Shown piece after piece: positions 29,605 to 32,824 of a stretch of DNA of 40,043 nt. The notes under the pieces were generated by a model. The model ran no database searches and was not told the origin of the DNA. It saw only the letters and a program-made list of their open reading frames with translations. This DNA comes from an uncultured Pelagibacteraceae bacterium (lineage in GTDB: Bacteria > Pseudomonadota > Alphaproteobacteria > Pelagibacterales > Pelagibacteraceae). A program made the translations under genes and the position numbers. Every line of letters begins with the position of its first letter. The stretch's first letter is position 1. The stretch is taken from contig CACODU010000005.1 of NCBI GenBank assembly GCA_902626045.1, forward strand, positions 1-40,043, written 5' to 3'.

Positions 29605-29634
29605 TTGACTGAAGGGCAGTTTATCAGCTATAAA
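29605..29634 (+). promoter_or_regulatory. predicted sigma70-type promoter of umuDC (TTGACT-N18-TATAAA)
   Basis: TTGACT at 29605-29610 and TATAAA at 29629-29634, 18-nt spacer, 19 nt upstream of the umuD ATG. Confidence 0.7.
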
Positions 29635-29649
29635 GAACAAAACAAGAAC
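29635..29649 (+). promoter_or_regulatory. candidate SOS/LexA-type operator GAAC-N7-GAAC
   Basis: GAACAAAACAAGAAC directly after the -10 box and ending 4 nt before the umuD ATG; matches the alphaproteobacterial GTTC-N7-GTTC LexA box on the opposite strand. Confidence 0.65.
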
Positions 29650-29653
29650 ATTT

Positions 29654-30046
29654 ATGAAGCTAACAATACCATTTTATTTGCATAAAGTAGGAGCCGGTTT
29701 TCCTTCGCCAGCCACTGATTATATTGAAGATGATATAGATTTAAATTCACATTTAATAACAAATGCACCAGCTACTTTTATTATAAGAGTTCAAGGCAAG
29801 TCCATGACTAACGTTGGTATATATGATGGAGATCTATTAATAGTAGATAAAAGTCTAAACCCAAAAAATTTTTCCACGGTAATAGCAAATGTTAATGAAG
29901 AACTTGTAGTAAAAACTTTAATCAAGAGCAAAGAGACTAACTATCTGACATCTGGGTCTAAAAATACATCAGATAGAATTAATTTAACAGACAATCCAGA
30001 AATTATAATTTGGGGAGTGGTCACATATGTCATTCATAAACAATAG
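29654..30046 (+). CDS. umuD: UmuD-like S24 peptidase, translesion-polymerase subunit
   Basis: AGFPSPA cleavage region, [23 protein letters not shown] (catalytic Ser), [14 protein letters not shown] (catalytic Lys); upstream of umuC. Confidence 0.93.
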
Positions 30047-31304
30047 TAAAAAAAAAATTGCTCTTGTTGATTGCAATTCTTTCTACGTTTCATGCGAAAG
30101 ATTATTTAATCCGAAAATAAGAAACGTACCGGTTGTTGTACTGTCAAATAATGATGGCTGCGTAATATCAAGATCAACAGAAGCTAAAGCATTAGGAATT
30201 AAGATGGGAGAACCATATTTTAAAGTTAAAGAATTAGTTAAAAAAAATAATGTTCAAATATTTTCTTCTAACTATTCATTATACGGTGATCTATCCAGGA
30301 GGGTAATGAGAGTATTAAAAGGATTTTCAGATAAAATAGAAATTTATTCAATAGATGAAGCGTTTATAGATTTATCACACATAAAAGATGAAATGACAGA
30401 AGAATATGGAAAAAAAATTAGAGAAAGAGTTCTTAAATGGACAGGAATTCCAACAAGTGTTGGTATTTCGTGTACAAAGACTTTAAGCAAAGTTGCAAAT
30501 CATGTAGCTAAAAAAAATAAAGCTGGCGTAATATTTTTAAAAAAAGATATCGATGAAATATTAAAAAAATTTGAAATTTCAGATGTATGGGGAGTTGGTC
30601 GACAACTATCAAAACTATATATAAAAAACGGAATAGATAATGCATATAAATTAAAAAATATATCTAACACCTGGGTAAAAAAAAGTACAAATGTATTAGG
30701 CGCTAAAACCGTAATGGAGTTGAGAGGAATACCTTGCATCGATTTGGAAACAGAGGAAACAAAAAGAAAAAGTTGTTGTGTATCAAGATCTTTTGGAAAA
30801 AAAGTTCAAAGTCTAGATAAATTAAAAGAGTCTATAACAACGCATTGCTTGAACGCAGCAGAAAAAATTAGAACGGACAAACAAACCACAAGAGCAGTGA
30901 CAGTATTTATTAGAACAAGTCCTTTTGACAAGAGTAGAAAATATTATTCAAATTCTATAACAATCGAGTTACCAGTAGATACCAATAATAGTTTAGAGCT
31001 AGTAAAAACTGCCATAAATGGATTAAACAAAATTTATAAATATGGATATTTTTATCAAAAGGCTGGAATTATTTTATCAAAATTAAAAAATTCTTCAGAA
31101 AAAGAATTAAACTTGTTAACGCCAATTTTAGAAAATAAATCAAAAACATTAATGAAAGCAATAGATTTTACTAATGCAAAATATGGACGTAATGCAATAA
31201 GTATAGCTCAAGCAGGAATAAATAATGATTGGAAAATGCGTAGAGAACATTCATCAAAAATAGATACAGCATCATTTGACTCACTACCCAAGATAAGTAT
31301 ATAA
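30027..31304 (+). CDS. umuC: Y-family DNA polymerase V catalytic subunit UmuC
   Basis: [64 protein letters not shown]; 20-nt overlap with umuD. Confidence 0.96.
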
Positions 31305-31305
31305 A
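31276..31305 (+). promoter_or_regulatory. predicted sigma70-type promoter inside the umuC 3' end, driving the TPP riboswitch/symporter
   Basis: TTGACT at 31276-31281, 18-nt spacer, TATAAA at 31300-31305; expected start about 31312, at the 5' edge of the riboswitch. Confidence 0.6.
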
Positions 31306-31307
31306 GT

Positions 31308-31374
31308 AAGAACGGGGTGTCTAAAAGACTGAGATTAAACCCGACGAACCTGACCGGTAATTCAGTGAGGGAAT
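31308..31374 (+). ncRNA. TPP riboswitch (THI element)
   Basis: AACGGGGTGTCTAAAAGACTGAGATTAAACCCGACGAACCTGACCGGTAATTCAGTGAGGGAATT; contains the conserved GGGGTG, CTGAGA, ACCC, GAACCTGA and AGGGAA blocks in order, directly before a transporter ATG. Confidence 0.92.
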
Positions 31375-31375
31375 T

Positions 31376-32824
31376 ATGGAAAAAATATATTTATCAATAC
31401 AATCATCATTAACAGTAACTATTATAGTAGGCCTTTTTTTTATCGGACTAGGGTATTTAAATTCAAAAAAAACTGTCGATAATAGAAATTATATAATTGG
31501 AAATAGAGACGAAAATACATTTTCATTAACAACAAGTTTGGCCGCATCCGCTTTGGGAGCATGGATACTATTTGGTCCAGCCTCAGCAGCTACATGGGGA
31601 GGTTTTGGAGCAGTAATAGGATACGCATTAGGTGCTGCAACACCTATGTTATTATTATACAATTTTGGACCTAAAATTAGAAAAGAGTTTCCTAGAGGCC
31701 TATCCTTAACAGAATTTATTAAAAAACGGTTTGGCATAGGAATACTTAAATTAAGCTTATTTTTAATATTATTTTATTTAATTATTTTTTTGATAGCTGA
31801 AGTTACCGCAATCGCTTTTCTATTAAACTTTATCTCTAAAACTCCATTATGGATTACGGCAGGAACAACCTTACTAATTTGTTTACTTTACATTTTAAGA
31901 GGAGGGTTCAAGCTTTCAATGATAACTGACAAGTACCAATTTATTATAATAGCAGTTTTAATATTTGCTTCTATGATTTTAATTCTCGGAAATTTAGAAA
32001 TAAATAGCTTTAAACTAATCAAAGAAAACTCACCAAATCTTATAAGTAGTAAATATTTACCAAATTATACAGCCGGACTTACTTTTTTTATAGCAGTAGC
32101 TGCAACTAATTTATTCCATCAAGGAAATTGGCAAAGGGTATTTGCTGCAAAAAATAATTTAATATTAAAGAAAAGCTTAATTTATTCTTCAATAATAACA
32201 TTATCAATAGTTTTATGGATGGGATATACAGGGCTTATTTCTTTTTCTTTAAATTCAAAAGTTATACCTGATTTAGCTTTTTTTGATTTAATACTATCAA
32301 AGAATTTTTTATTAATTATATCAATTTTAGTATTAGCATTGGCTTTAACATTAAGCACAATAGACACTTTAATTAATGCGATATCAAGCATTCTTATTGT
32401 AAATGGTAATCAAATTAGTAAATCAATTTTTGGTAATTCTTTAAAAAATAAAACTAATTATATAATTTTACTTATAAGTATTTTAGTTTTTGTTTTAGCA
32501 TCCAAGGGATTTAGTATTTTATATTTATTTTTACTAGCAGACTTATTTTGTTGTGCAGCGGTTGTTACAATTTTTTACGGTTTTTTTAATAAGAAAATTA
32601 ATTCTCAAATGTCATATTTATCTATTTTAAGCGCACTAACTTTAGGAATATTATTTTTTCCAAGTATGGATTTTCAATCAAGTATATTAGTAGGGTATTT
32701 ATTACCAATTGAATCTTTTAGTTCAATTATTACCACTAACTTACTTTTTATTTCATTTTCAATAGCGATAATTACTCAATTTTTCTTTATAATATTTTAT
32801 TCTTTACGAAGCTCATTTAAATAA
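31376..32824 (+). CDS. thiV: solute:sodium symporter family transporter, putative thiamin-precursor (HMP) transporter
   Basis: SSS-type multi-TM protein (GLGYLNSKKTVDNRNYIIGNRDENTFSLTTSLAASALGAWILFGPASAATWGGFG; LFHQGNWQRVFAAKN) directly downstream of a TPP riboswitch; the gene name follows the SAR11 thiV precedent. Confidence 0.8.
   Translation: MEKIYLSIQSSLTVTIIVGLFFIGLGYLNSKKTVDNRNYIIGNRDENTFSLTTSLAASALGAWILFGPASAATWGGFGAVIGYALGAATPMLLLYNFGPKIRKEFPRGLSLTEFIKKRFGIGILKLSLFLILFYLIIFLIAEVTAIAFLLNFISKTPLWITAGTTLLICLLYILRGGFKLSMITDKYQFIIIAVLIFASMILILGNLEINSFKLIKENSPNLISSKYLPNYTAGLTFFIAVAATNLFHQGNWQRVFAAKNNLILKKSLIYSSIITLSIVLWMGYTGLISFSLNSKVIPDLAFFDLILSKNFLLIISILVLALALTLSTIDTLINAISSILIVNGNQISKSIFGNSLKNKTNYIILLISILVFVLASKGFSILYLFLLADLFCCAAVVTIFYGFFNKKINSQMSYLSILSALTLGILFFPSMDFQSSILVGYLLPIESFSSIITTNLLFISFSIAIITQFFFIIFYSLRSSFK

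Follow-up and report, generated by a model that had tools for sequence, protein, structure and literature searches.

RecA-driven self-cleavage of LexA, which relieves repression, is established for LexA generally. In Escherichia coli, the LexA-regulated umuDC operon encodes DNA polymerase V (pol V) as a umuD-umuC pair with a self-cleaving S24-family UmuD and a repressor site of the CTGT-N8-ACAG type on its promoter. UmuDAb of Acinetobacter is a self-regulating UmuD that carries an N-terminal DNA-binding extension. In Alphaproteobacteria, the imuA-imuB-dnaE2 cassette is an SOS mutagenesis operon with other polymerase genes. The LexA box of this class, for example in Caulobacter, is the direct repeat GTTC-N7-GTTC (PMC12700426, PMC3323433). 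For SAR11, expression evidence comes from strain HTCC1062 under infection by phage HTVC027P, in which recA, lexA, umuD and umuC are upregulated together, the excinuclease genes are also upregulated, and nrdA (3.12-8.87 fold) and nrdB rise, for which the authors invoke phage need (PMC12753301); in the same strain, lexA, recA and mucA also cluster under late iron stress (PMC2864753). A literature search, which drew mostly on papers outside subscription, found no earlier description of LexA boxes in SAR11 and no DNA-binding, footprint or start-site measurements on a SAR11 LexA.

The umuDC locus analysed here lies in a 40,043-nt stretch of DNA (the window) from a SAR11 (Pelagibacteraceae) draft genome of 0.71 Mb that is 67% complete. 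The site at its umuD promoter is identical to the alphaproteobacterial LexA box in half-sites, spacing and direct-repeat layout, but differs from that box generally in having a near-fixed spacer, AAAACAA, and the SAR11 operator is a predicted one. Like the imuA-imuB-dnaE2 cassette, SAR11 umuDC is an SOS mutagenesis operon behind the same operator word, whereas its polymerase genes are umuDC. With the E. coli operon it shares the gene pair, the self-cleaving S24 UmuD and a repressor site on the promoter, whereas its box is of the alphaproteobacterial type and lies 3′ of the -10 hexamer, and its predicted leader is very short.

The umuDC promoter carries a LexA-type direct repeat

The original prediction described a TTGACT-N18-TATAAA promoter followed by a GAAC repeat ending 4 nt before the umuD ATG, and the sequence confirmed this exactly: positions 29605-29653 of the forward strand read TTGACT, 18 nt, TATAAA, GAACAAAACAAGAAC and ATTT, after which the umuD ATG begins at 29654 (Table 1). 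The site thus combines two GAAC/GTTC half-sites, direct-repeat orientation and the 7-nt spacing that characterize alphaproteobacterial LexA operators, and it is located in the promoter of an SOS gene, just 3′ of the -10 hexamer. By itself, the promoter is unremarkable; it was absent from the list of a consensus sigma-70 scanner because the scanner applies a strict -10 rule and TATAAA lacks the final T. The predicted 5′ UTR of ~13 nt is consistent with this layout, and because such a leader is too short for a standard ribosome-binding site, umuDC translation may be near-leaderless.

Table 1. Positions of the umuDC promoter elements, genes and neighbouring element in the window
Feature	Position	Strand	Evidence
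-35 hexamer TTGACT, umuDC promoter	29605..29610	+	sequence; per-column conservation 0.97-0.98 (63 distinct genus sequences); also in second family
-10 hexamer TATAAA, abutting the operator directly	29629..29634	+	sequence; spacer 17-18 nt in 60/63
Predicted LexA operator GAACAAAACAAGAAC; complementary strand reads GTTC-N7-GTTC; overlaps the likely +1	29635..29649	+	sequence, conservation
umuD, 130 aa, S24 peptidase	29654..30046	+	PF00717 E=9.9e-23; NF007621 137.6 bits, cut-off 110
umuC, 425 aa, Y-family polymerase	30027..31304	+	PF00817, PF11799, PF13438
TPP riboswitch-like element, directly 3′ of umuC and before a sodium:solute symporter gene	31303..31390	+	42.9 bits, E=1.2e-7; below the Rfam gathering score of 54.3

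The umuD product has the S24 domain, the Ser-Lys dyad and the cleavage site and is free of a helix-turn-helix (HTH), as a member of the UmuD family should be; in an alignment with residue checks, the cleavage site Ala14-Gly15, Ser50 and Lys87 lined up with their counterparts in structures of E. coli UmuD. Compared with E. coli UmuD, its arm is ~10 aa shorter and the cleavage site is Ala-Gly instead of Cys-Gly. The umuC gene overlaps umuD by 20 nt, and its best NCBIfam match was UmuC, at 400 bits slightly below the cut-off of 431.

The repeat is conserved at umuD within and beyond the genus

Conservation within the genus was assessed on 63 distinct umuD upstream sequences. Both GAAC half-sites were present in all 63 and the identical 15-mer in 56, while TTGACT and TATAAA stood 17-18 nt apart in 60 of the 63; the distance from the operator end to the ATG was 4 nt in 60 sequences and 3 nt in three. 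The region 5′ of the -35 hexamer was much more weakly conserved. The original prediction had named lack of conservation upstream of umuD in relatives as a refutation, and the repeat withstood this check. In more distant relatives it was kept at umuD as well, with one spacer change in genus g5 and an identical sequence in genus g6, abutting the ATG in both, and with an identical box in the same TTGACT-box layout, at a longer gap from the ATG, in family f2. Because the site is kept where its flanks diverge and persists across three Pelagibacteraceae genera as well as a second family, we judge it to be real.

A scan of 385 Alphaproteobacteria genomes located the exact 16-mer GAACAAAACAAGAACA in 56 of them, with 72 sites in total, compared with 3 sites for the reversed control (~24-fold enrichment). 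Judged by eye from their sequences, the genes downstream of or divergent from the loci read presumably include those for ImuA-like proteins and PA0069-type radical SAM proteins, as well as umuD and, once, lexA (L292); some of the loci read had no obvious SOS gene adjoining. The LexA encoded at L292, whose own gene has the 16-mer, and the SAR11 LexA have in common the HTH stretch SKSG[IV]HRLIS.LEERG.

LexA and RecA are encoded by the lineage

LexA scored over the TIGR00498 cut-off in 43 of 61 relatives, including 15 of the 16 with a completeness of 90% or more, demonstrating that the lineage encodes a cognate LexA and leading us to reject the loss of lexA that had been considered possible. RecA was found in 48 of the 61 relatives, source genome included. 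A search of the source genome itself had been proposed, and of the two genes it returned recA; lexA was not found by TIGR00498 in the 67% complete draft. In the genus, lexA is flanked by a trpC-like gene on one side and gltX on the other, and on Sargasso Sea contigs lexA lies immediately 3′ of trpC (PMC2395257). Since gltX is missing from the source draft too, we attribute the missing lexA to an assembly gap, in which the segment with this neighbouring gene was left unassembled. The HTH, the Ala-Gly cleavage site, the Ser and the Lys are all present in SAR11 LexA. In near-complete relatives, LexA and UmuD were the sole LexA/S24-family matches, and LexA was the only HTH-bearing S24 protein found.

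Boxes of the same kind occur at lexA, recA and nrdA

Both lexA and recA carry boxes of the same kind as umuDC. In most of genus g1 the lexA promoter holds GAACTTTTATAGAAC together with a second, reversed box that has a GTAC half-site at the start codon, and in family f2 it holds GAACATTGATAGAAC-type boxes. The reversed box of g1 ends at the MLTKK start codon (L037, L137-L166), a position that disfavours the longer MYEVCS start of LexA. At recA, the box AGAACAAAATGTGTACA with one degenerate half-site, GTAC, was present in both families; the conserved recA box GAACAAAATGTGTAC lies ~40 nt 5′ of the ATG, the box of genus g5 is AGAACAAAATATGTACA, and in f2 recA is mostly preceded by a second box that is near-canonical (loci L167-L196). 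A site 220 nt 5′ of recA in one genome lies in coding sequence and was rejected.

The search for further repeat sites near promoters, also suggested in the original prediction, yielded the boxes at lexA, recA and nrdA, and plain GAAC-N7-GAAC showed no genome-wide enrichment over a reversed-pattern control in near-complete relatives. Many recurrent matches to the plain motif were dropped because they lie inside coding sequence, presumably that of ppx, purF and ATP synthase genes among others. More useful was the flanked pattern AGAAC-N7-GWACA, which had 46 sites in eight near-complete Pelagibacteraceae genomes (reversed control 26), 35 of them at lexA, recA, umuDC or nrdA and 2 at mraZ in genus g5. 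Upstream of nrdA (NF006577), GTTC-N7-GTTC occurred at -103 to -106 from the ATG in all three Pelagibacteraceae genera tested (L228, L339-L345); in family f2 no over-cut-off copy of NF006577 nrdA was found, the match there being a partial one to a larger reductase. A palindrome, ACAACATATAGTTGT, which we take to resemble an NrdR box, lies between the LexA-type box and nrdA in L339-L342 and L345. An AGAAC-N7-GAACA site at L354 (G267:C1:795412-795428) is located ~750 nt 3′ of nrdA and may fall within nrdB or ahead of it.

In genus g5 (L310, L318), a LexA-like box, AGAACAATATAAGAACA, stands 87 nt 5′ of mraZ (NF001477 match), which suggests that the division/cell-wall cluster of this genus may be connected to LexA. 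The confinement of recurrent boxes to lexA, recA, umuDC and nrdA suggests, at the level of sequence, a pared-down SOS regulon. The regulon may be larger because a strict pattern would miss degenerate sites; the excinuclease genes, for example, are among those upregulated in phage-infected HTCC1062 (PMC12753301).

Alternative explanations of the umuDC site

The proposal of a LexA-type operator on the umuDC start is supported by the invariant half-sites, the prevalent 15-mer and the boxes at lexA and recA, and the 15-mer is almost certainly a canonical LexA operator that blocks the start site of umuDC. A chance match without regulatory role has to be weighed against this, since GAAC-N7-GAAC, which occurs once in the window with both strands scanned, is expected 0.35 times per shuffled window and appeared at least once in 28 of 100 shuffles (about a quarter); because matches arise so often, the bare motif in 40 kb is not significant, and it is also unenriched genome-wide. 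The position of the motif, unlike the bare motif, is unusual, with ~0.02 promoter-proximal matches expected over the ~35 genes of the window by a simple base-composition estimate. Moreover, position and spacer are kept in three genera and a second family, and the exact 16-mer is far above its control in Alphaproteobacteria, beside SOS genes. Conservation therefore already refutes a chance origin, to which we assign practically no probability. Conservation of the box as part of the core promoter or translation start, and not as an operator, is very improbable: the box abuts the -10 hexamer near the ATG, where constraints on the initial transcribed region or on ribosome binding could help to preserve it, but the same repeat stands elsewhere relative to the start at nrdA and recA, the f2 umuD box is further from the ATG, and the repeat is also found in unrelated promoters across the class.

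The identity of the repressor can be approached in the same way. A non-LexA or divergent repressor reading the umuDC site in a lineage that has lost lexA would fit the failure to find lexA in the source draft, but nearly all near-complete relatives have the gene, the draft also lacks the neighbouring gltX, the boxes of the lexA promoter match, and LexA and UmuD account for every LexA/S24 match in near-complete relatives. A divergent LexA-like regulator, which the original prediction had entertained, is likewise unsupported, and unnecessary because the only HTH-bearing S24 protein is LexA and the lexA promoter has a similar box; we consider such a repressor highly unlikely. The other candidate raised there was the S24 protein itself, which is encoded directly 3′ of the site and might repress its own operon in the manner of UmuDAb. 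UmuD is a protein of 130 aa in which Peptidase_S24, at residues 6-123, is the sole domain and the N-terminal DNA-binding extension characteristic of UmuDAb is absent; because it lacks a DNA-binding domain, the probability of autoregulation is negligible.

Discussion

With LexA as the preferred repressor, we infer for the source strain that LexA binds the umuDC site, that transcription starts within it, and that the operon is repressed and inducible. The joint rise of umuDC with lexA and recA in the HTCC1062 transcriptomes gives indirect support. As long as the DNA is undamaged, dimeric LexA would occupy GAAC-N7-GAAC across the start, directly 3′ of the -10 hexamer, and RNA polymerase would be blocked. 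DNA damage or phage-induced single-stranded DNA would give rise to RecA filaments that trigger LexA self-cleavage, upon which umuDC would be expressed as a transcript whose leader is very short. RecA would also drive self-cleavage of UmuD at Ala14-Gly15 and so render pol V active.

As for ribonucleotide reductase, a LexA box before nrdA, predicted in the promoters of relatives while the expression data come from HTCC1062, would be a simpler link to the nrdAB rise than phage need. The SOS regulon of Pelagibacteraceae, comprising the lexA double box, recA, umuDC and nrdAB, could be among the smallest, and LexA control, not phage need alone, could explain the nrdAB rise, a reading to which we give slightly less than an even chance. 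The umuDC site is a textbook alphaproteobacterial LexA operator, and the testable lead is a very small SAR11 SOS regulon, which provides a short list of SOS targets (lexA, recA, umuDC and nrdA) that can be tested in bacteria not easily manipulated. Even at the extreme of streamlining among marine bacteria, the LexA/RecA switch is retained intact, together with an error-prone polymerase that is probably inducible, and therefore regulated mutagenesis is possible in SAR11.
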